A stretch of DNA of 64,000 bases, taken from positions 2,375,501 through 2,439,500 of the forward strand of contig OU612070.1 in the NCBI GenBank assembly GCA_914767715.1, read 5' to 3'. Numbering within the stretch: position 1 is the stretch's first letter; the number at the start of each line of letters is the position of its first letter. This document shows, in pieces, positions 6,801-25,066 of the stretch. The DNA is from Membranipora membranacea. Taxonomy: Eukaryota > Bryozoa > Gymnolaemata > Cheilostomatida > Membraniporidae. The notes under the pieces are model-generated. The model was not told the DNA's origin. It worked only from the letters and a program-made list of their open reading frames with translations, and did no database searches. Both the position numbers and the translations under genes were made by a program.

Positions 6801-9541
6801 TTATGATTTTGCAGGGATGATTTTAGTATGGCATATCTCAATGGTTCGACCAAATATTTTGACAATCACATCTATTTTATGCACTTTGTCCCACACTGGT
6901 ATAAAAGACTGCAGAGTTTTACTGATAGTTTCTTTTTGTTCACTTCTTTCTCTGCCAAAGACCATGCCATCCTAAAACAATGGAGGAACATTTTATTCAG
7001 AGCACAAAAAATTACCTAGTTTCCGTTCCTTGTAAAATCTAAGTATCTGACTGCTCTGCAACCGCTATCAAACAGTATCTTTCTAATTTTTCTATGAAAA
7101 ACCCAATAACTATTAATAACATACTTCTCTTAGTAGTCTGAACTTACAATTTGGTTACATTTAACGAAAAGCGCATGAATCAAGTAGTTCTGTTATTGTG
7201 TTATGTATATTGACTTACCTGTAGTACATTTAGAGACAGATGGGCTGGTATAACAGTCTGTTTATTATCTGGATCTCTGAGGCTGACATGGATATGAGGA
7301 ATGGAGACTGCTGTGCTGTTATCATCATAACTGGCAAAAAAATAAATATGGAGGTTAAGCAAGGCAAGCTGAGATCAAGGGTTACTCCAGATCGGCTGGA
7401 TAGAGATTCATTCAATAAACCGAGCTTGAAATTCAACACAAATACATATCTGTGGAATATTGGCCCTCAAAAGCGCCATGGTCAAACATGAATATCAACA
7501 GGCACACAAAATATGCTCCGGTCGGGAATGACCGTCCTGTAAACCCATCGTTAAAGGTATTTTAATTCAAGGCACCATGCAAATTTTACATTGAGTTGGT
7601 AAAATACTGACTTTTATAAAACTTTTTTGAGACCATGCATTCAAGGTCATTAGATCAGCTCACTACTTAGATACAATAATAATCTGCATATAGAAACATG
7701 TGAGATATGCGTTCTCTTACCCATATATAGAAACATGTGAGATATGCGTTCTCTTACCCATATATAGAAACATGTGAGATATGCGTTCTCTTACCCATAT
7801 ATAGAAACATGCCAGATAGGTGTTCTCTTACCCATATATAGAAACATGTCAGATATGCGTTCTCTTACCCATATATAGAAACATGTCAGATATGCGTTCT
7901 CTTACCCATATATAGAAACATGTCAGATATGCGTTCTCTTACCCATATATAGAAACATGTCAGATATGCGTTTTCTTACCCATATATAGAAACATGTCAG
8001 ATATGCGTTCTCTTACCCATATATAGAAACATGTCAGATATGCGTTCTCTTACCCATATAAAGAAACATGTCAGATATGCGTTCTCTTACCCATATATAG
8101 AAACATGTCAGATATGCGTTCTCTTACCCATATATAGAAACATGTCAGATATGCGTTCTCTTACCCATATATAGAAACATGTCAGATATGCGTTCTCTTA
8201 CCCATATATAGAAACATGTCAGATATGCGTTCTCTTACCCATATATAGAAACATGTCAGATATGCGTTCTCTTACCCATATATAGAAACATGTCAGATAG
8301 GTGTTCTCTTAACCACATATAGAAACATGTCAGATATGCGTTCTCTTACCCAAATATAGAAACATGTCAGATATGCGTTCTCTTACCCATATATAGAAAC
8401 ATGTCAGATATGCGTTCTCTTACCCATATACAGAAACATGTCAGATATGCGTTCTCTTACCCATATACAGAAACATGTCAGATATGCGTTCTCTTACCCA
8501 TATAAAGAAACATGTCAGATATGCGTTCTCTTACCCATATATAGAAACATGTCAGATATGCGTTTTCTTACCCATATATAGAAACATGTCAGATATGCGT
8601 TCTCTTACCCATATATAGAAACATGTCAGATATGCGTTCTCTTATCCATATATAGAAACATGTGAGATATGCGTTCTCTTACCCATATATAGAAACATGT
8701 CAGATATGAGTTCTCTTACCCATATTGAGACTGTTTAATAACTGAAAATACAGGTAATAGGTGGGCTGTAGTCTGAACAAGCACACACGACGCAGCTCCT
8801 TGTCGTCCTGTACTGTGTCTGACATGTATCAAATTACAGATCTGTGAGACGGAGAGGAATTCTAGATCTGGAACCAGGAGTCTAGTATCCAGTGTGAATA
8901 CTACAGCATCTGAAAGCAGAGGAAGACAGAGCTGCTGTTATACTTTTTGTGTTATGCAAGTTGGCCAGAGCACCTCCTTATCACAAAACCGGCTCAAAAA
9001 ATGTAGCGTAACGGTACCTGATTATTAAGGCTATAAACTGCATTTTAGAATGTACCTGTGATGAAGCTGCCATAAGAAACTTTGTCGGTTCTAAGCACTT
9101 AACTGCTGTTGGAACTTCCATCCTTCCCTCCCCAAAAACTTGGAAATTAGGCAGTCACAAGGAAAATAATTTATAGTGGCATCCTACAGCATGACCGACC
9201 ATTTTGTTTGCTTGTATATGGGGTACGTTCTCAAGCACCTTTGCTAGGAGGAATCTCTTTATTTTCTGTAACTGAGTGAAGTCCGCAGTGTCCTGCAGCA
9301 TTCATCACAAAGAAAAACTGACACCGGCCTATCCTATCCATCATGCCAGATAAAGTTTCCCCTTTAGCTGGTAAGTTTGGAGCAGTCTGTTGGTTTCGTT
9401 TCCTTTTCCTCGTCCGTTTCCTCGTCGCGTTTCTGGAGACTGTACTGTGCTGAGGACTATGCAACTCAATAATCTTCACAGTTTTCTCTATTTTGACACC
9501 TCTGCTTTCTGCTGGGTTTGATTGTTTCAAACCAGTGTAAT
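6801..9541 (-). CDS. POT1: POT1 exons 10-14: C-terminal shelterin-binding region
   Basis: Exon 10 (9239-9541) encodes 100 residues with a strongly basic run, TRKRTRKRKR, a plausible nuclear localisation signal. Exon 11 (9056-9097) is only 42 nt and its acceptor is weak. Exon 12 (8720-8909) runs DAVVFTLDTRLLVPDLEFL to LLPVFSVIKQSQYG and ends at the donor where the minisatellite begins. Exon 13 (7219-7330) gives YDDNSTAVSIPHIHVSLRDP and IPAHLSLNVLQ, similar in order to the VFVMTFTLDDGTG, AYLMDSD and IPASEVL strands of the human third OB fold. Exon 14 (6801-6971) ends IEICHTKIIPAKS before TAA. Phases through exons 12-14 are exact. Exons 10 and 11 rest on phase and splice consensus only. Confidence 0.72.
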
Positions 9542-12500
9542 CTATTGATAATATAAATAGTATATCAACACTTTGGCAATGACAGTCACTTTGTCTAACT
9601 GAGACAAGATGGAGAGTAAGTTATCTATATTTACAGTCAAATCAATGCTACACAGAGACACTAGATCTCCACAAAATTAAAAATCAAATCAAAATTATGC
9701 TGTTTTGAAGATTTTACTGTTTGAACTCCCTTTAGATAAAAACATGTACAAGCAGGCAAGCCATTCATGGTCACCTCTCCCTACCCTAGTTATGTGAGCT
9801 GATAAGGACCATTTCTATAGCGTGGCAAACTAATATGCTCTGTTAAATATTTAATACCATCACTGGCAGTTTTGCTTGAGATCTGATTGAGCTCAGGTAC
9901 TATTCTGTTGATGATCTTCTCTCTTTCTTGTCTAGTTGTTGGTTCCGCCATCTTTTTGTGTTTTTCATGCAGATACAGCTCGGCAGTACTATCACTGTTA
10001 ACTTTACAATGTACTCCGAATATCACATAACAAGCACCAAGCTACAAAGTGAAAGATATAGAAATCTGTTTATTCATGCAAATCAGCTCAACTACCAGAC
10101 ATTGATTGGATTTACTCTCGGGAAAATCAACACCAAATCTTATATGGGACCATAACTCAATCATAGGGTAAAGTAAGAACATCTAACAAGAAACTTACCT
10201 TAAAACAGTTCATGAGCGTTGAATGTTTACCATAAGCCGTCAAATAAACAGAGTACTCCGCAGGAAGTCTCAACTCAGTGATCTTCTCAACATTAAGATC
10301 ATGCAGTGATGGAGTCTTGAATGTTCTACATATACAAAAAAATCTCGATCATCGTTTATGATAACTCCAAGTTTACAATAATTTTGAAAGTCGGATAAGG
10401 CACCTGGGAGGGTGGGTCAGCCATACACAGGGTCCGACACAACCATAAAAATGAAAACTCTGCTGAAAAATCAGATTTAACAGAATTATTGGATCAAGAA
10501 GCTGTTCATATTTTGTTACAGACTCAATATCACTGCGTTCTGTGTTGAATGTGTTGACAAAATCATGCTGTCATATTATCAAATTGTCTTATACATTACA
10601 ACTTTCAGATATCAGTTAACAGGAGTGTCTTTGGCCTTTGAATATTAAGATACTGAATGACAGAATAAGATTTCCTCACTTGTTTGGTATAGTCCCGTCT
10701 TGCAATTCTACTATTGTGAAGTCGTCACTTTTGTAACAAGCTACCAACTGTAAATATATAGAGGGAAGATATAATTATGTTATCTTTTATACAAAAAATG
10801 GACGTAGTACCACTTCTAAACTCCATTACCAATGACATGTTACAAATTCAACCAACCTTTGTACAAATCTACTACTGCTTACCCTACATTTAAGGTTGAG
10901 AAATGCATCACGTGACTCGATTCTGTCTAGTGTAGTGCCCACACAAGTGCTCTGATATGCTACATTTGAAGGCATAGAGAATACATGCTGTGTGGTCAGT
11001 GCTGAGTTCTTTGGCTCCATAGAAACATCATTAGCTGGCACTTCTTTGATAGTTGGCTTGTTGGAGTTATCTGTATAGGATGACAAAACACAAAATTTAA
11101 CAATCACTCGCAACTCTTGAAAGTAGTTTACACTGAAAATGACAAGTGGATAACAAAAACTACCAAGCTCCATTTTAGGTTTCCCACCAATATATTAAAC
11201 CAGAACAAGGGTTACATAGACTATTGGCCAGATGCCTTAGTATGATGCTCAACAGTTCTAATTTGCCACCCTACATGTAGCATTTCTCCAGTATGTACGG
11301 ACACATAGGAAGAAATGCTGACAAACAAGAACATGGTCATGTAAGCCATGTAAGCGCCCGATACACAAACACTGCTTCTTTCAGGTTTTAATCAGTGCTT
11401 GTGCTCCTCACTGCTAGGTGATTTGTTTGACAGGAGTTCTGGATTCAACTCTCCCACAGGGAGAATTGTTTAATGGTCTGTTCAGTCTCAGCCCCTTTGG
11501 ATGTATCTATGACTGTACATCCCCACAGACAGCCATAATTTATTCAAACTACATATCAACGTACCTTCATCTGGCTTGCCTCCATGTTCAGGATTGACCG
11601 CATGGTCAGAAGATACACCATTAGTAGTTTCTGGTGGTAACACAGATACTTTCTTAGGAGATAAAGCATCCATATCATCAGGGTCTGTACGATCTCTCCA
11701 TTCCCTCAGCTCTTTTATCTACAGTGCAACCAATGCATTTTTCCTGATTCGAGTCAAGAGGGTATTTTAAGTGAAGTGCCAATAAGTTTATTAAAGTGAT
11801 ATATCGCCTTTTCAGTTTCCCTGGAACTAGTTGTCCCATCTCAAAAATTCCTTCACTGACACGTTGCCAGTAGTCTGGCTTATGTTCAATATCGCAAATT
11901 TTTTTAAACCGCATGTTTGTAACTCGATTGATTGTACATTAACTAAAATACATATACATATTGAAAACATATAGGCAGCAATGGGCAAAATGATGGAGTA
12001 AATTACGTTATGCAAAAGAGTGATGAAAATCTATGCAGTATTACATGCAAAGCACATTGTGTACAACAATGGATCACCTTTTTGGGGTGATCGTTTAGCA
12101 TCGAAAGAGAAATGTTCATGCTCATAACTTCTCAACTATTGAATTTATCATCAAACGCCAATGACATAACCTTGGAAATACTCTCTAGTTTAATGGAAGC
12201 TAGTGTGTATAACCATAGAGTTATCCCTCTATGTGTATAACACATAGACTTAATAATAAACCTAGACAGGACACTGTATATAGCTGAAGTGAGGCACTTA
12301 ATTATGGTGACACGACGTCACTGGAGGGTGTAGAAACAGTGATTTTTACTCATAGCTATCATTGATTTACCTGTCCCAGCTCTGGTTAAATGTTGATAAC
12401 TCAATTGGCTTCGATCGGAATTTAATTTTGAAAATTACAATAGATTCAGCAGCTTCTGGTGATAATTTTGATAGTCCGTTTAGCCTCATAGCTCAAATAC

Positions 12501-15500
12501 TATATAAAAAAAGCAAGCTATTGAAAACGGTGCATAGACTTATAGCTATAATTTTTTTTGCAGTTTCAGTCCTGAATAAATGCTTATATCTCAAACAATT
12601 TTGATTGAATTTTGAGTTTGAAAATTGCAATAGACTTGGCAGCTTCTGGTGATCATTTTGATAGTCTGTTTAGCTTCATAGCTCAAATATTATCACAAAA
12701 GCAAGCTATTGAAAACCGTGCATAGAATCAAAGCCATAATTTTTTATGCAGTTTCAGTCCTGATTAAATGTTTATTTCTCAAACAATTTTGTTGGAATTT
12801 TGAGTTTGAAAATTGCTATCAATTCAGCAGTTTCTGGTGATCATTTTAATAGTCTGTTGAGCTTTGTAGATCGAATATTATCAAAAAAGCAAGCTATTGA
12901 AAACTGTGCTTAGACTCGAAGCTATAATCTTTTTGCAGTTTCAGCCCTGTTTTAAAGTTTATTTCCTTATCAATTTCGATGGGATTTTGAGTTTAAAAAT
13001 TGCAATATATTCAGTAGCTTGTGGAGATCATTTTGATGGTCTGTTCTGCCTTATAGCTCAAGTATAACCAGGAAGTTCAGGACTTTCTTCCTTGAAATAA
13101 CTGAGGAAGCAAGTAATTGAATTTACTTGGTGAATACACTATTACCAAAGAAATAACTAATTTCATCTTGGCTTTTTTGAATGCTTTTTTGCTCATTTTG
13201 ACCCAGGCATGCACAATAAGAAACGTCATGACCTTAGACAAAATATCCACCAACATTATTGAAATGTGACCAACAGAGATAGTTGGAAGTAAACAAGTCA
13301 AGGCCGGACCTCACAAAGCTTCAAATAAAATTGAAGTTCGTAGTAGACGATATTTTGTGTAGCTAATATAATGGTCACTCCGGTGGGTCAAAAGTAAAGG
13401 GAGACCTCCTGCCCCGGCAGCATTATCCTCGTTCTTACCTTATATTAGCAGCCTGATAAAACAAGCAACAGCTAAATCCGGTAATTCAGGAAATCATAAT
13501 ACATCAATTCTGACCACGAAACATAATCTTTTGAACTTTTTAAATACAAGGTTATTGTGGTCTGCTGGTGTCAGCAATATAGCAACAGATTTCTAGATTT
13601 CTGAGAACACAGCAGTTGTAACACTCATCAAGCTAAGCACTATTTGTTCACAATGGATAAGCCAGGCCAGAGCGGATCTTCTGAACCACCAGTATGTAAC
13701 TGTGATACAATGACTATGCTTTCCTTTGCCTGCTATAGGTATTGTCCTTGCTTGTTCGGTTATAACAAGGAGGAAAGTCCTAAACTCCCTGGTTATACCT
13801 GAGCTACAACGCTGAACAGACCTTCAAAATGAGCCCCATAAGCTGCTGAGTCTATTGCAATTTTCAAACTTGAAATTCCATTAAAATTGATTAGGCAATG
13901 AACTTCAAATCAGGGTTGAAACTGCAAAAAAGTTATAGTTTTGAGTCTATGCACCGTTTTCAATAGCTTGATTTTTTGATAATATTTGCACTACAAAGCT
14001 AAACAGACTATCAAAATGATTACCAGAAGCTGCTGAGTCTATTGCAATTTTCAAACTCAAAATTCCATCAAAATTGTTTGAGATATAAGCATTTATTCAG
14101 GACTGAAACTGCGAAAAAAAATTATAGCTTTAAGTCTACACACCGTTTTCAATAGCTTGCTTTATTGATAATATTTAAGCTACGAAGCTAAATAGACTAT
14201 CAAAATGATCGACAGAAGCTGCTGAATTTATTGCAATTTTCAAACTTAAATTCCGATTGAAGCCAATTGAGTTATCAACATTTAACCAGAGCTGGGACAG
14301 GTAAATCAATGAAAGCTATGAGTAAAAATCACTGTTTCTACACCCTCCAGTGACGTCGCGTCACCATAATTAAGTGCCTCACTGCCTCAATGCTAATGCT
14401 CCATACAGTGTCCTGTCTAGGTTTATTATTAAAGGGCAACCACGGTTTCAAACAAGTTCTCATCGATTGATAGCAGATTGCAACATCTGCATCGGGTAAA
14501 AGACAAAATCTAATTCTGATGATTATTCAGTCAGAATTCTTGTGAAACAATTCATCCATCAGGTACTCAAACTCAGCTAAAATAGAATACCACAGAGCAG
14601 TTTCCTGTTCCTGTTATTATTTAGCCTGTGCTCTATCATTATTAAAGCAATGTCTTGGAACCTCCCCTAAACTGAGGTGTTACCCAGCCTAGAGTCAGCA
14701 ACTACTTTGAGTTTTGCGCCGTGTCATGCACAAAGCTGATGCTGCCTAGCACATTATTTACTACCCACTAATGCATTGCTGCGAAACCTTGGTTGCCCTT
14801 TAAGTCTATGGTATAACATGATCTTTAAACCTATTTTCAGTTTTTTGGCTGGAGAGGAGTGCATGTTTTGGACCAAATACAGCTGGTTTAGCCACAAAAA
14901 TTCAAATATCTCAAGATGTAAAGCCATAATCAACAATCGCTTCGATCAAAACCTAGACAATCTCCTGCTGTTCATCATGCTGACAACAAATTTGACTGAC
15001 ATCTTTCTGAATTTTGACTGGAAAATTTTGACCTAAATTAGTTAAAATTTGGGTTATTATCTGTTACAGTTGTGACAACCAGGATCTGTAAGCTGGTAAG
15101 ATTATTGATGGAAGTGACAGTACAAGACCAAAATGGTATAATAAATTGGAAATTTTAGTTTCTGCATTATTGGCGTCGCATGTAATGAGGGGTCAGAAAT
15201 GGACCTATTACTGTTGCAAAAATCAATTTCAAGTCTCGAAGACAGGAGGCCTAAAATCATAAAGTTTCACTAAAATGTCACTCCTCCAGTTATTGCCATG
15301 CCTCCTCTATATGGTGAAAGCATAAATTAATCAAATACCTCAAAAACAAGGCAAACAAGGGCAAATTTGCCCCAAAATATACTTTCCGAAGTCACTGCGA
15401 CTCAACGTCAAATATTTGGGAGGCTTCAACTGTGAACATAACCATTAGACATGATCTTAATCCATTATCATGTGCTGTTTTTCTGATGAAGATAATTTAG

Positions 15501-15753
15501 TACACGATTTTCTTGAACGTTGCCCTTCTGGCCGTCTAAGACATGTTAGATATTGCAGCTCATGGGGCAAAGACTGTTTTCTGAGACAAATGTGCATCAC
15601 GCTTAATGAGATTCTTTTTAAAAAAAACCAAAGTTCCATACACTAGTAGCAAGCTCTGATAATGACAAAGTATATGCATCCTTTTTTCGCAACATTCAAT
15701 GTTTGTGATAGCAATAAATCAATCAATCGATCAATCAATCGATCAATCAATCG

Positions 15754-15849
<96 letters not shown>

Positions 15850-18244
15850 CCAAAACAATATTAAAAAGTTTTAAAAAGCGATATATCACGATATAATCCC
15901 TATATATATCACGATATAAAGGATATAATCCTTAGGACCATCATGTACGTGAATAACAAAATAGCAACTGTCATATAGAGTTTGCGGACCCACCATGTTC
16001 CCGGGTTGTTCTCATGCTAGAATGTACATGGTGCCAGTCCCATTATCAACCATATGTGTATCACATAGTGAAAATTTCTCTAGATTACCCCGTGAGATCA
16101 TATCATGGGTCACATACATGATTTGAGATCACACAGCACATTCAAAATTGATGTTGCATTACAGGAACGTTAAGAGCCTACCTGAAACAGGGACGGAATC
16201 AATGTATCTAATATATCAAGAGCTGACCAAAATTAAAACTTACTATTTTTTCCTCTGTAACCTCAAATGTGACATGAGATCTCGAGCTGGTATCCCATTG
16301 ATATGTGGTGTTGTTAGCTTTGAAGAGCACCCATGTACCTTTGTGTGCCATCATCAGCTTTCCATTTACAGAGTCTCTAAAGGTTTCAACCTTAACAGAC
16401 AGGACATCGCAGTCATGACACTTATTAACCTCAAGAACGACACCGACTTATTCTAAATTGTAAGTCGCAGTATTTTATAGTCTAAGCTTTCAAGACTCTA
16501 CCCCCCTGCCAAACAGCCCCTTTGCTTCATGATCATGAGTTGGGATGAAAGGATTGTTTCTATAATAATCTATGAACAGAGGCAGCCGAAGTCAGCTTAT
16601 TGTGAGGCTAAAGTAACTGTGGAAATTAAACTAACGTCATTTTGCACCCAACCATACTAGATTATGCGCTGAGAAGGAGCTACAAGTAGTGTTTACAAAA
16701 AGCTTCAACTGACAAACCTTGACAAAGTTCATCCTTATGACATCTCCAGCCTCACACTTTGGCAAATCATCGAGGAATGTAGCAAACACTGACACAGTAA
16801 ATCTTTCTTCTTTTTCAAAGAGTTTAGCATTATGTAAGCTTATCACCATATAATGACCTGCAGAGATAAATTTTAAGTGATTTTATGCTTCATTTACTCT
16901 TTACCCATACTGACTCTCGTGATCTGACTGGGCATGTAGATCACTGATAAACCAGGCTATCATTACCACAAAGAGAATGTCGTAAGGCTAAGTATGTATC
17001 ATGCGTGACTTGAATTTGCGCATGTGCAAGAACAATGAGTTTAGTCTGGGTTCTAATTGCAATTTTGGTCTGGGGAGATAGGACACCACCTGCATAAATT
17101 GCCAGTCAACTTTAGCTAATAGTGACAATAGAAGATAACTCTTTCTAACAATTCCGCACGCATTTGTGAGTGTGCCACCAGAGCAGGTAGCCAATCAGAT
17201 GGCTTCGGAATTCCGAGGCTCAATTTTGCAGAGATCAGCTCATGCCCAGAGCTGAGCATGCGCAGAATGCTCTTTACCTTCAACAAGGATTCAATCAATG
17301 CAGCCAGCTACACGTGTTCTGAGGCTGTTAAAATCACCAACCCCTATGTGATTTCAGATAATGATCTACCTTCTTTTATTTTGATCGCTCAAACCGTACC
17401 ATTATAGCTGGTAAAAGCTTTCCCCGTAAACTAGCGTGAACTAGTCTTGCTCCTAATAACGAACTTTTAGAGTTATTGATAGCAGTACAATCAATTGAAC
17501 AAGAGTAAATCATGGAATCATTGGATTTGACTAGATTGTAGCTTTCAATGAATCAAGCTTTGAATGAGATATTTCAAAACTCGGATTCATTAATTCAATA
17601 ACGCTTTTATAGGGCCAAAACTGAAATTTCTCAAGAGACAAACATGGATCAAATCGTATAGTAGAGTCTCACAATAACACTCCCCAACCAACCAACCAAG
17701 TCTTGTCATAAGGATTTTAAATTGTAAAGTGAATTCTATCATAACTTACTAGTGCCTCTACTAGCCTTTTTCGGCTCATTGGCAAACTTGACTACACCGT
17801 AAATGTGTATCACCTTCGGTCCATCAGCAGTAACACTCTCCAAATCTGTGTAGGTGTGCTGGTAAAATAATACAATGAATATACCTATTTCTGAAGCTGA
17901 AGCTAATCATAGACAAGGCATGACATTGCCCACCATATATAGTGCTACATTCCTAGATGGGATATAAGGCATGGCTTCATATAGATGTGAAAACGTCAGT
18001 GATACATTGCTACATCATGGAAAGACACCTTTAATGTAGCCAATACGTTGGCTCTGGCAGGCTTGTGGCCAATCAGATCAAAGCCAACACTACTCTGGCT
18101 GCTTCTTTGACACAATGGAATGGCAAAGTACAGATAAAGCTGTCAGTTGCCTCACTGACATACATTGGTGCTGATTTGTACTACTGAACATACCTGGAAC
18201 TGGATGAAGGTAGGTTGTGAGTGTGCAGTTATGGAAGCATTCAT
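6801..18244 (-). CDS. POT1: Protection of telomeres 1 (POT1), about 14 exons
   Basis: POT1 binds the single-stranded telomeric overhang through two OB folds and joins shelterin through a C-terminal domain, in the nucleus. Exons on the minus strand, high to low: 18194-18244 (ATG), 17750-17858, 16718-16857, 16244-16390, 11565-11718, 10883-11070, 10680-10747, 10199-10325, about 9858 (or 9810)-10041, 9239-9541, 9056-9097 (tentative), 8720-8909, 7219-7330, 6801-6971 (TAA). Every junction is GT-AG and codon phase carries through. Summed length is about 660-677 residues, against 634 for human POT1. Diagnostic stretches are VIHIYGVVKF (OB1) and FLNLKCRLVACY followed by LQDGTIPNKTF (OB2). The ninth donor and the 42-nt eleventh exon are the weak points of the model. 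The introns carry many mobile elements. Confidence 0.9.
7687..8726. repeat. 37-bp minisatellite, about 28 units, containing repeated splice donors
   Basis: A tandem array in POT1 intron 12, with consensus unit (plus strand) CATATATAGAAACATGTCAG then ATATGCGTTCTCTTACC. Units are nearly identical, with a few variants such as AGGTGTTCTC at about 7815 and again 13 units later. On the minus (coding) strand each unit reads ATATGG|GTAAGAGAAC, a strong 5' splice-site match. The copy nearest the exon is the actual donor of exon 12. At least two units have lost the GT (near 8315 and 8645). The array has no spacers and is not a CRISPR. Confidence 0.95.
9810..11718 (-). CDS. POT1: POT1 exons 5-9: OB2
   Basis: Exon 5 (11565-11718) opens IKELREWRDRTDPDD, the counterpart of the VEALRVWASTH helix between OB1 and OB2. 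It is followed by a low-complexity linker into exon 6 (10883-11070), which ends TTLDRIESRDAFLNLKCR. Exon 7 (10680-10747) is LVACYKSDDFTIVELQDGTI. Exon 8 (10199-10325) is TFKTPSLHDLN to LTAYGKHSTLMNCFK. Exon 9 (from 10041) is LGACYVIFGVHCKVN and AELYLHEKHKK, matching the last strands of OB2. Exon 9 stays open to a TAA at 9790, so a short isoform ending just after OB2 is possible. Donors at 9857/9856 (ATG|GTATTA) or 9809/9808 (ATG|GTCCTT), both phase 1, would instead join exon 10. Confidence 0.88.
12235..14818. mobile_element. Foldback transposon with tandem repeats in its arms
   Basis: The element is 12243-14810, flanked by an exact 8-bp duplication, GTATAACA, at 12235-12242 and 14811-14818. 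It begins CATAGACTTAATAATAAACC and ends in the reverse complement of the same sequence, interrupted by the nested TTAA element. The arms are long: about 12243-13110 on the left, and from about 13740 on the right. They contain tandem units of about 181-189 bp marked by the block GCAGTTTCAGTCCTG, at 12371 (variant), 12560, 12748 and 12935 on the left and inverted at about 13916, 14097 and 14286 on the right. The centre, about 13110-13740, encodes nothing recognisable. Long arms with internal tandem repeats resemble foldback/Galileo-type elements, and an 8-bp duplication suits the P or hAT groups. Confidence 0.85.
14429..14803. mobile_element. TTAA-target MITE nested in the foldback element
   Basis: A 367-bp element at 14433-14799 is bordered by TTAA at 14429-14432 and 14800-14803. 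Its terminal inverted repeats are AGGGCAACCACGGTTTC (left) and AGGGCAACCAAGGTTTC (right, read inward), with one mismatch in 17. Removing it with one TTAA restores an uninterrupted right end of the foldback element that mirrors its left end, which shows it inserted later. TTAA targets are used by piggyBac and Kolobok transposases. The AGGG end fits a Kolobok-type derivative somewhat better; this is inference. Confidence 0.88.
15455..15849 (+). mobile_element. LINE family A 3' end with long AATC tail
   Basis: A 5'-truncated copy. Positions about 15478-15625 translate to DEDNLVHDFLERCPSGRLRH then SSWGKDCFLRQ and LNEILF, collinear with the C-terminus of the family A copy at 2.7-2.84 kb. After a short 3' untranslated stretch it ends in about 133 bp of AATC repeats (15717-15849), interrupted at the start by GATC variants. 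It lies inside POT1 intron 4, antisense to the gene. Confidence 0.85.
15717..15849. repeat. (AATC)n microsatellite
   Basis: An almost pure tetranucleotide array with three GATC substitutions at its start. It directly follows the LINE 3' end, so it appears to be an expanded retrotransposon tail rather than an independent microsatellite. Confidence 0.97.
16244..18244 (-). CDS. POT1: POT1 exons 1-4: OB1 (telomere DNA-binding fold)
   Basis: Exon 1 (18194-18244) encodes 17 residues ending TFIQFQ. Exon 2 (17750-17858) gives HTYTDLESVTADGPKVIHIY and GVVKFANEPKKASRGT, matching the start of POT1 OB1 including the near-invariant YGVVKF. Exon 3 (16718-16857) gives HYMVISLHNA, VSVFATFLDDLP and GDVIRMNFVK, corresponding to the central strands. 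Exon 4 (16244-16390) gives VETFRDSVNG to TSSRSHVTFEVTEEKI, which lines up with the TSSKYFNFTTEDHKM region of human POT1. Exon-exon phases are 0, 1, 0 and 0 and are all satisfied. Intron 2 carries MITE family M copy 2. Intron 4 (about 4.5 kb) carries the foldback element. Confidence 0.9.
16897..17278. mobile_element. MITE family M, copy 2
   Basis: The element at 16906-17269 (364 bp) has an exact 9-bp duplication, CTCTTTACC, at 16897-16905 and 17270-17278. Its ends and interior match copy 1 at 6133-6479, including the GGGCATGTAGATCACTGATA and AGCAGGTAGCCAATCAGATG blocks. It lies in POT1 intron 2. Confidence 0.88.
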
Positions 18245-21560: not shown

Positions 21561-24500
21561 AATGGCGGCTAGCCAGTTTTAAATCCAGCTGAAAATTTTA
21601 AAGAGGTTTTAGCATAATTTTAACCCGAAATTCAAGTGTTTTAGAGGAACAGCTTTTATAAAACATTCCCTAAGTCTCCCTGAACCCCATCCCTCGTCAT
21701 TCTACGCTTCTACTGTCTGACACTGAGAGATATTCTTCATTGTTCAGCAGCTGCTGAATCCAAGATGGCCACCATTCAGCCTGATCCTGTTTTAACATCA
21801 TCATGAATAACAGAACTCAGCTCATCTGTTTACTTGTGTGGCACATGTAAGCACCCATTTGGAGACTGGGGTGAACCTGGTGTACTATGTGAGATATGTG
21901 ACGTTTGGTACCACCTATACTGTCAAAGAATTCCATCTCATGAATATTCAAAACTAGGTCACGACAGTGTTAACTGGATCTGCTCACATTGCAACACCAG
22001 CCACTATTCAACAACATCCCCAGACTTACTTCAAGTAGATAATCAATCTCAATGTAACCATGACTCGTGTGTAGAAGATAAATCATACCACACCTCAACC
22101 GAAACTATTGACTCTCTGGAATCTGCCAGTATGCCAGTACACACATCCTCCCCAACCAGACCTAGGCTACCGCCCGCACGGGGACGGCCACTGCGCTTCA
22201 TCAATATCAACTGCCAATCACTAGTAAGGAAAAAGGGGGCTTGGCAAAATCTCATCTCAACCACTAAGCCAGATGTCATTATTGCGACTGAGACTTGGCT
22301 GGATCCAAGCATTGGCGATGCTGAACTGGAATCTGAGTCCTATACCATTTATAGAAAAGACCGCGCAACATGCGGCGGTGGTGTTCTGATTGCTGTGAAC
22401 AACTCCATCATAAGCACAGACGCTACGATCACCACCTCAGCTGAAATAACATGGGTGAAAATACACTGCAAAAACCATCGCGACATTTACATCGCTGCAT
22501 GTTACCGTCCCCAAGTATCTGACACCAACTTCAATACCCAACTACAGTCATCACTCAACCATATACTAGGGAAGAAGAGACCTAGCTCTGTAATTGTGGC
22601 CGGGGATTTTAACTACCCTGGTTGGGACTGGTCAAGTAACAGTCTTAAAACAGGAGCCCAACATAGAGCTCTTCACTATGAGTTTGCTGACATCCTGGAC
22701 GATTTTGGGCTCACCCAGATTGTCACTGAGCCGACCCGTCTCCATAACACTCTAGACCTCGTCTGCACAAACATTCCAGATCAAATAAACAGAGTCAAAG
22801 TCATCCCTGGCATAAGTGACCATGCAGCTGTGTTCTTTGAGATCAATGTCACTGCTATTAACAGAACACAAAAACTCAGAAAAATATGGTTGTACAGACA
22901 CGCTGATTGGCAGGGTATGACACAATACCTCGCACCCCGCCTCACCAGCATAGATCAGCAATACCACACAAGTCCTGACGAACTATGGACTGATATCAAA
23001 ACACTAATCCTGGAGGCTATGGAGATCTATATCCCTCGGCGGAAACCCAAGCGTAAGGATTCCTGTCCCTGGATAACAAAAGACCTCCATAAGCTGATAA
23101 AGATCAGGAATAGACTTTACAAGCGTGTCAAGAAAAGAGGTTGCCCTCGTCTGGAGGCAAGGTATCTTTTATATCGTGCCTTAGTAAAGAAGCAACTGAG
23201 GACAGAACATGCCGACTATGTGCACCGCTTGTTTACCGAAGAAGATAAATCCCAACGAAACATCTCAAAACGCTTCTGGACCTATATCAAACACAGACGC
23301 TCATCTGCTGTCTCTAATATAGGCCCTCTGAAGAAAGGAAGTGCTCTGACTACCACTGCTAAGGAGAAGGCCAACCTGCTGAATCAGCAATTCATGTCAG
23401 TCTTCTCCAAGCCAACGCCAAGAATAGACTACCTGACATTGACCCTTAAATCAGTCATGCCCAACATCTCCATATCCACTAACGGCGTCCACAAGCAACT
23501 TAGAACTCTAAACCCATACAAGGCCACGGGCCCAGACGGCATTAGTCCCAGGGTGCTCCGAGAGCTGGCTGACGTACTTACCGCACCACTATCGAGTCTT
23601 TTCCAACTCTCACTCGACAAAGGGTCTGTTCCACTGGACTGGAAGAAGGCCATAATATCGCCAATCTTCAAGAAAGGGGACAAGTGCTTACCATCCAACT
23701 ACAGGCCTGTTAGTCTTACCTGTGTAGTCAGCAAAGTTCTAGAGCATATTGTCACCAGTCAACTAACATCTTATGCTGAGTCACAGGGACTGTTCTTCAA
23801 GAACCAGCACGGCTTTCGGGAAGACCACGGTTGCGAACGCCAACTCATTGAACTAGCCAATGATATCGCCAAAAACCTTGACAAAGGGATCGAGACAGAT
23901 GCTTGTGTGTTGGACTTCTCAAAAGCCTTTGACAAAGTTAACCACAGCAAACTATTACTGAAGTTAGCAACGTACGGAGTGTCCTTTCAAGTGTTATCAT
24001 GGATTGATGACTTCCTTATGAACAGGACCCAGAAGGTTGTAGTTGAAGGAGAAGAGTCAGACGTCTCCCCTGTCACCTCAGGAGTTCCTCAGGGTTCAGT
24101 GATCGGCCCAACTCTTTTCTTGTACTACATCAATGATATGCCCGACAACATCAAGTCAACAGTACGATTGTTTGCTGACGACACAATTGTATACTCTGAT
24201 GCAATCAACCACCAAACACTCCAAGATGATTTGAGCAGGCTTGAGCAGTGGGAGAATCAGTGGGACATGGAGTTTCATCCCTCGAAATGTGAGCATATTT
24301 GTTTCACAAGGAAGAAACGCCCATCAGAGAACTCCTACAAACTCCACAACATCGAGATCCCCCGCACCAACTGCACCAAATACCTTGGTGTGTATGTTGA
24401 CTCAAAACTAACCTGGCACGAACACATAGCCAAAATCACTAGTAAGGCAAATGCCACCCTAGCCTTCATACGACGTAATGTCCTCACAACATCAGAAGAC

Positions 24501-25066
24501 ATTCGCTCCACCGCCTACAAACAGCTAGTGAGACCAGTACTCGAGTATGCTTCCTGCGCTTGGGACACTCTTACCCAGACTGTAGAGACCAAACTCCAAG
24601 CAGTTCAGCGTCGTGCAGCCCGGTTTATCTGTGGCATCCGGCGCAGCGACAGGAAAACCAGCACCACAGGTCTTCTCTCAAAGCTTGACCTTCAACCACT
24701 GGATGACCGCCGTAAGTGTAGGCGACTGCAGGTCTTTCGCACCTACCACTTTAATGCTCCTCACATCATCAATGAACATGTGTCTAGATCAACACACCAC
24801 TCCAGCAGACGCCATGCACAGCAGTATTTCATTCCATCTACCAACACTCTGCACTATCGCCGGTTCTTTTTTGTTAGAACTGCCAAAGACTGGAACTGTC
24901 TACTGCCTGGTTGCCCACTGTTAACAGCCCCTGCCCCGAACCCCGGTTAGATGTAAAGCTGTTCCTTATTGGTTTACCGGTAAATGACCTGGAAACGTAA
25001 AACGATTCATGAGTTTTTAACGTTCCTGAAGTCACGACGCTGAAGTCGGCGCTAGGAGCTAAGAAT
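21555..25066 (+). mobile_element. Near full-length LINE encoding PHD finger, endonuclease and RT
   Basis: A plus-strand non-LTR element inserted into the antisense family B LINE. It has about 280 bases of 5' leader, one long open frame (21834-24950) and about 115 bases of 3' untranslated sequence, with no poly(A). The limits come from where the interrupted host LINE stops on each side (about 21555 and 25066). The intact frame suggests it is the youngest LINE in the window. Jockey superfamily, CR1-like by domain content; clade not proven. Confidence 0.88.
21834..24950 (+). CDS. LINE polyprotein: PHD finger - AP endonuclease - reverse transcriptase
   Basis: About 1038 residues without a stop. 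Residues 2-53 form a C4HC3 PHD finger: CGTC, CEIC, H and C in WYHLYC, then CSHC. Residues of about 125-350 are an exonuclease-endonuclease-phosphatase fold with NCQSL, TETWLD, CYRP, AGDFNYPGWDW and SDHAAVFF, which nicks target DNA. Residues of about 535-810 are the RT: GPDGISPRVL, NYRPVSLTCVV, DFSKAFDKVNH, GVPQGSVIGP, catalytic RLFADDTIVY and YLGVYVDSKLTWHEH. The C-terminus carries FFVRTAKDWNCLLP. The frame has no ATG near its start: 21834 is TTG, with an in-frame TGA at 21804. The ATG at 21803 is in another frame and stops after 13 codons, so a one-base indel or non-AUG start is implied. All catalytic blocks look intact. Confidence 0.9.
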   Translation: MCGTCKHPFGDWGEPGVLCEICDVWYHLYCQRIPSHEYSKLGHDSVNWICSHCNTSHYSTTSPDLLQVDNQSQCNHDSCVEDKSYHTSTETIDSLESASMPVHTSSPTRPRLPPARGRPLRFININCQSLVRKKGAWQNLISTTKPDVIIATETWLDPSIGDAELESESYTIYRKDRATCGGGVLIAVNNSIISTDATITTSAEITWVKIHCKNHRDIYIAACYRPQVSDTNFNTQLQSSLNHILGKKRPSSVIVAGDFNYPGWDWSSNSLKTGAQHRALHYEFADILDDFGLTQIVTEPTRLHNTLDLVCTNIPDQINRVKVIPGISDHAAVFFEINVTAINRTQKLRKIWLYRHADWQGMTQYLAPRLTSIDQQYHTSPDELWTDIKTLILEAMEIYIPRRKPKRKDSCPWITKDLHKLIKIRNRLYKRVKKRGCPRLEARYLLYRALVKKQLRTEHADYVHRLFTEEDKSQRNISKRFWTYIKHRRSSAVSNIGPLKKGSALTTTAKEKANLLNQQFMSVFSKPTPRIDYLTLTLKSVMPNISISTNGVHKQLRTLNPYKATGPDGISPRVLRELADVLTAPLSSLFQLSLDKGSVPLDWKKAIISPIFKKGDKCLPSNYRPVSLTCVVSKVLEHIVTSQLTSYAESQGLFFKNQHGFREDHGCERQLIELANDIAKNLDKGIETDACVLDFSKAFDKVNHSKLLLKLATYGVSFQVLSWIDDFLMNRTQKVVVEGEESDVSPVTSGVPQGSVIGPTLFLYYINDMPDNIKSTVRLFADDTIVYSDAINHQTLQDDLSRLEQWENQWDMEFHPSKCEHICFTRKKRPSENSYKLHNIEIPRTNCTKYLGVYVDSKLTWHEHIAKITSKANATLAFIRRNVLTTSEDIRSTAYKQLVRPVLEYASCAWDTLTQTVETKLQAVQRRAARFICGIRRSDRKTSTTGLLSKLDLQPLDDRRKCRRLQVFRTYHFNAPHIINEHVSRSTHHSSRRHAQQYFIPSTNTLHYRRFFFVRTAKDWNCLLPGCPLLTAPAPNPG

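Follow-up and report, generated by a model that had tools for sequence, protein, structure and literature searches.

A POT1-like gene of the bryozoan Membranipora membranacea carries a minisatellite of 28 units that starts at the end of exon 11 and repeats the 5' splice site of this exon. The most probable explanation, to which we assign a probability of about 0.62, is that the minisatellite expanded out of the exon-intron boundary and is not under selection but only tolerated, with its later donors leaking some unproductive transcript. The array is located in a stretch of 64,000 nucleotides, called the window, and positions refer to the window unless another sequence is named. The features discussed are listed below; a slash in a motif marks the exon-intron boundary or the exon join.

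6801..18244, minus strand: POT1-like gene model with 13 exons and 647 aa; exons picked by eye, all 12 introns GT-AG
8720..8909, minus strand: POT1-like exon 11, 190 nt, from the gene model
7219..7330, minus strand: POT1-like exon 12, 112 nt, from the gene model; in-frame join (GG/T) to exon 11
6801..6971, minus strand: POT1-like exon 13 and stop codon, from the gene model
7690..8725, minus strand: minisatellite of 28 units of 37 bp, each with ATATGG (6 nt, exon-like) and GTAAGAG... (31 nt, intron-like)
8720..8725, minus strand: ATATGG, the exonic part of unit 1 (6 nt) and the end of exon 11, from the sequence and the gene model
8714..8722, minus strand: predicted productive 5' splice site TGG/GTAAGA, donor score 3.37
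7690..8688, minus strand: units 2-28, with GGTAAG intact in 25 of 27; units 3 and 12 are broken
8716..8718, minus strand: TAA, met at once on use of a later donor or on intron retention

The frame of the exons chosen by eye was checked by a script, which gave 647 codons and a stop with consistent phases. The modelled product matches the Pfam family POT1 (PF02765), the N-terminal telomeric single-stranded DNA-binding OB fold, over residues 21-156 (E=1.1e-16, 61.4 bits, cut-off 29), and five POT1 sequences from the PDB with E values from 1.4e-5 to 1.7e-4. The initial annotation had named the gene POT1, and these matches in the N-terminal part support its identity as POT1-like. A second stretch, residues 257-346, is collinear with the PDB POT1 chains, with a weak independent E of ~210. 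A comparison of exons 11-13 with the PDB gave nothing credible, the best matches (E 0.35 and 0.84) being unrelated proteins, and the name of the gene therefore rests on the N-terminal part. Intron 4 contains a (CAAT) microsatellite of 34.5 copies (15712-15849) and two arrays of a 188-189-bp repeat (12427-13065 and 13802-14254), which by eye have opposite orientations. Two long open frames are present on the plus strand of the window, one at 1018-2277 that by eye is reverse transcriptase-like (YADD), and one of 1047 codons at 21807-24950.

Tandem Repeats Finder delimited the minisatellite at 7688-8725, with a period of 37, 28.1 copies, and 97% matches, and unit-by-unit reading of the minus strand placed 28 units of 37 bp between 8725 and 7690. 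The consensus of the unit is ATATGGGTAAGAGAACGCATATCTGACATGTTTCTAT. The GGTAAG core is intact in 26 of the 28 units, whereas the +1 G has been lost in units 3 and 12. In 200 kb sampled from this genome, GGTAAG occurs 101 times on the two strands together, a frequency that predicts ~0.26 occurrences for one strand of the array; the 26 seen are far beyond chance. Because only 20 single-base differences occur over the 28 x 37 = 1036 positions, the array is young or homogenised. Two of the 20 differences, both at the +1 G, affect the donor positions GGGTAAG, which make up 7 of the 37 positions of the unit and would be expected to receive ~3.8. The donor is thus not spared beyond chance. A search of the window against Rfam gave no match at the gathering threshold. 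Where the array ends distally, TTTCTATATGCAG (7684-7710, with CTCAC upstream) resembles a 3' splice site. Its role as a second acceptor was rejected, since the downstream stretch has weak donors, the best scoring 0.97, and there is no evidence of its use. Recursive splice sites were also rejected, as AG precedes GT in no unit.

The array had originally been described as about 28 copies of a 37-bp unit with ATATGG/GTAAGAG in almost every copy, starting at the donor of exon 12 and reaching about six bases into the exon. The unit number, the repeated donor, and the exon end at 8720 were all confirmed, and unit 1 is made of ATATGG and 31 intronic nucleotides; however, the exon is number 11 in the 13-exon model. 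The first donor keeps the frame with the next exon through the GG/T join, as had been claimed, the exons in question now being 11 and 12. Unit 1 has a donor score of 3.37, and the three other phase-2 GT sites of exon 11 score -1.74, -9.02, and -10.2. As judged by these predictions, unit 1 appears to be the only well-scoring donor of exon 11 in frame with exon 12. Read-through past it yields SQYG followed by the TAA at 8718-8716, and the open reading frame ends at 8716, which agrees with the earlier proposal that later donors lead to an immediate stop (GGG TAA). The stop is automatic, because in any intron of phase 2 that begins with GTAA a codon xxG is followed by TAA, and it is therefore no sign of design.

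The sequence of the array points to growth at its present position, as the initial annotation had suggested. The 16-mer ATATGGGTAAGAGAAC occurs 24 times in the 339-Mb genome, 23 times inside the array, and the surrounding 9 kb of the 24th copy contain no unit-like repeat. A search of the genome with a 149-bp array query, in which very common words were skipped, returned eight matches, all within the array. A 37-bp segment spanning the boundary of exon 11 and intron 11, with six exonic and 31 intronic nucleotides, would have been duplicated in tandem, probably by slippage or unequal exchange. Expansion and homogenisation would have followed, leaving 28 units with 26 almost identical 5' splice sites in place of one. 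Minisatellites are plentiful in this genome (11 places with a period of at least 10 and at least five copies were counted in 200 kb). Triples of the donor core recur many times elsewhere, so that no special cause is required for an array of this kind. The presence of mobile-element-like open reading frames in the window, recognised by eye, could instead suggest that a dispersed satellite or a mobile element landed at the donor by chance. However, the array sequence was found at one place in the genome and its units contain exon sequence. An insertion is hardly credible, and was rejected on the 16-mer and 149-bp searches within the limits of those searches.

In the most likely mechanism, U1 could bind any intact unit. 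We assume that the first site is used; closing an exon of a normal size of 190 nt, it would serve the productive mRNA. The later sites would be used at a low rate, producing transcripts that stop at GGG TAA. At least ~145 nt would separate this stop from the last junction downstream of it, and such transcripts would normally be degraded, so that the array would presumably be neutral. Predicted folding may point the other way. Among the 28 donor stretches, that of unit 1 has the lowest accessibility, with a probability of being open of 0.0001 versus 0.0006-0.0254, and it is also the lowest among the 12 donors of the gene, the others ranging from 0.0003 to 0.164. Unit 1 alone carries a T that makes an 8-bp hairpin perfect, at -6.1 kcal/mol compared with -4.7 in 23 of the 28 units. 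Low accessibility of unit 1 would shift usage to the decoys, and counts against the by-product reading. The folding result was given little weight, because swapping the T in silico moves the accessibility only from 0.0001 to 0.0003 and the predictions are rough. If U1 occupies every one of several equal donors, splicing can settle on the intron-proximal site, an outcome that would be badly unproductive in this array. In human CBS, a 68-bp duplication of a splice junction leads the machinery to strongly favour the more distal copy (PMC2630376). By analogy, this case and the intron-proximal rule would count against the array being a tolerated by-product.

Arrays of donor-like units are also present at other loci. 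Three GGTAAG in tandem spacing were matched 2652 times genome-wide, and the places listed cover the first 2 Mb of sequence C1, in which six such arrays are located. Two of the six were chosen for their repeat of AG/GTAAG, leaving out the other four. The first (L043, C1:217650-218500) has an exon-like stretch of 159 nt followed by 11 donors spaced by 28 bp, of which one is GGTGAG, and has the same immediate stop as the POT1-like array. The second (L044, C1:481200-482400) has an exon-like stretch of 102 nt and 14 donors spaced by 44 or 50 bp. Both arrays begin exactly at the end of the exon-like stretch, which in each case has one open frame and an acceptor-like start; the peptides of the two stretches have no match in Pfam. 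Three perfect tandem copies of AGGTAAGT were matched 454 times genome-wide, and the first 100 of these matches (C1 to C3) contain, by hand count, 26 further array positions, nine of which share one common unit.

Further donor arrays adjoin paralogues of the gene. Two more POT1-like loci exceed the cut-off of PF02765, at C3:34088899-34089078 (L038) and C5:535279-535461 (L039), and are 79-91% alike over their aligned pieces. The genome thus has at least three POT1-like loci, including the gene in the window, in a count based on Pfam alone; the profile search omitted the gene in the window, the first domain of which is split over exons. Downstream of both paralogues is a second donor array with units of 26-27 bp, which has five donors at C5:540944-541086 (L041) and two at C3:34083002-34083053 (L042). 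By reading, it is positioned where a signal-peptide-like exon of a neighbouring gene ends, and this exon had no Pfam match over the cut-off. By eye, the exon appears to be frameshifted in the C5 copy, where reading from the same ATG runs into a stop. In the C3 paralogue, a 30-bp repeat in ~15 copies, partly open on both strands, occupies positions 87-537 of L038, just past the coding stretch that resembles the second OB fold. Since three other readable donor arrays occur at other exon-like stretches, the location in a telomere gene may be a coincidence; one of these three adjoins the POT1-like paralogues.

In all four loci read with their flanks, including the POT1-like gene, the array starts at the end of an exon-like stretch; two of the four had been picked as donor-like, and one consists of two related copies (with five and two donors), of which one looks frameshifted. 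Donor arrays may therefore form a recurrent class seeded at exon ends. That the genome repeatedly grows minisatellites from 5' splice sites in many genes, with 2 to 28 donors and the POT1-like array as one case, is a tentative proposal that we place somewhat below even odds. Reversed cores gave fewer tandem matches than the donor cores, 442 versus 2652 for GGTAAG and 79 versus 454 for AGGTAAGT, with reversed words almost as frequent in 200 kb (90 versus 101, and 12 versus 15). The permuted cores GATGAG and GAGTAG gave 745 and 3202 matches, with base frequencies of 123 and 77. These totals fail to distinguish donor cores from other words, which probably reflects the weight of a few large arrays, and with 2652 versus 442, 745, and 3202 matches it was not established that tandem arrays are enriched in donor cores relative to permuted controls. 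By hand count, the first 2 Mb of C1 contain six GGTAAG arrays versus two GATGAG arrays, numbers too small to judge. In 299 kb including the window, 30 of 331 GGTRAG sites have a close copy 15-120 bp downstream, 25 of them in the POT1-like array and five in two other places. The corresponding count for random 15-mers is 142 of 5978. Donors outside the POT1-like array are thus near the background, and no enrichment is claimed.

Minisatellites that supply multiple splice donors are a kind of element already known, with the G1P3 minisatellite and the CBS 31-bp VNTR as examples. Turri, Cuin and Porter in 1995 reportedly described a minisatellite of a human interferon-induced transcript with multiple splice donor sites; in this gene, called 6-16, units of 12 nt resembling the donor consensus are said to be located near the end of exon 2, and downstream units to be used. 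The connection to G1P3/IFI6 was made through papers on that gene that cite the 1995 work. In both arrays each unit brings a splice donor, but the unit length, gene, and organism differ, and alternative donor use was reported for G1P3/IFI6, whereas the donors here are predicted. The CBS VNTR c.1444_1467+7(16_21) has 16-21 copies of a 31-bp unit that lies across an exon-intron boundary and repeats the donor, as in the POT1-like array (PMC2630376). Its unit consists of 24 exonic and seven intronic nucleotides, compared with six and 31 here, and it is polymorphic, whereas the POT1-like array was read in one assembly. Human TERT contains VNTR6-1, an intron 6 minisatellite with a 38-bp unit, the array length of which is linked to splicing and decay (PMC11830802). 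It shares with the POT1-like array the intronic position, an almost equal period, and a telomere gene. However, G-quadruplexes at a distance of ~3.5 kb from exon 7 are the proposed means of action of VNTR6-1 (PMC11830802), in contrast to the repeated donors here. By reading, the POT1-like unit has one GGG run per 37 nt, unlike the G-rich TERT unit, and the G-quadruplex feature was not found in it. In intron gain by tandem duplication, splice signals are copied across the exon-intron boundary (PMC4974935). The duplication over the boundary is similar, but the POT1-like gene shows no new intron. The unit junction is TATATGG/GTAAG, without recurrence of AG/GT, and the unit therefore cannot be a ready-made intron. 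No wider account of donor arrays was recognised in the open literature from titles and the beginnings of abstracts, a coverage outside which most subscription papers fall.

An alternative to a tolerated by-product is a copy-number dial, an unproductive-splicing switch in which the unit number sets the unproductive fraction of the POT1-like transcript, an idea raised in the initial annotation, and is kept or tuned by selection. It would account for the immediate stop on use of any decoy, for the intact donors of 26 of the 28 units, and for the low predicted accessibility of unit 1, and it has a parallel in TERT, another telomere gene, in which a 38-bp intronic VNTR alters splicing (PMC11830802). 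However, the stop follows from phase 2 and GTAA, similar arrays are present at other exon-like stretches, and the variation of the array does not spare the donor positions beyond chance. Because of this last observation, the tolerated by-product with some leak is favoured, and the dial is considered unlikely.

The array would be merely intronic or intergenic if the true end of exon 11 were elsewhere or the C-terminal exons were unused. The exons were selected by eye, the Pfam match is confined to residues 21-156, and exons 11-13 have no convincing similarity to solved structures, which leaves room for such an error. Nevertheless, the 13 exons fit together in frame through canonical sites, and a second good phase-2 donor is absent from exon 11, making a wrong model improbable. 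It is even less probable that the 26 U1 sites protect against premature polyadenylation or raise expression. An intact unit is predicted to pair with the 5' end of U1 at -9.2 kcal/mol, compared with -11.8 for a consensus donor, and the same intron has one ATTAAA, at 7566. However, a single ATTAAA is unremarkable in AT-rich DNA, and the intron contains no AATAAA.

The consequences of the tolerated array depend on the use of its later donors. If these are used, a repeat of variable length directly controls the amount of intact POT1-like mRNA, and the gene is a natural test bed for the way the spliceosome chooses between numerous equal 5' splice sites. Without such use, the array shows the strength of the exon context in protecting the first site. 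With exon-end arrays at several loci in one genome, both questions could be tested at scale from one long-read RNA set. If the recurrent class is true, the fidelity of splicing at these arrays would be subject to a variable length that mutates rapidly.
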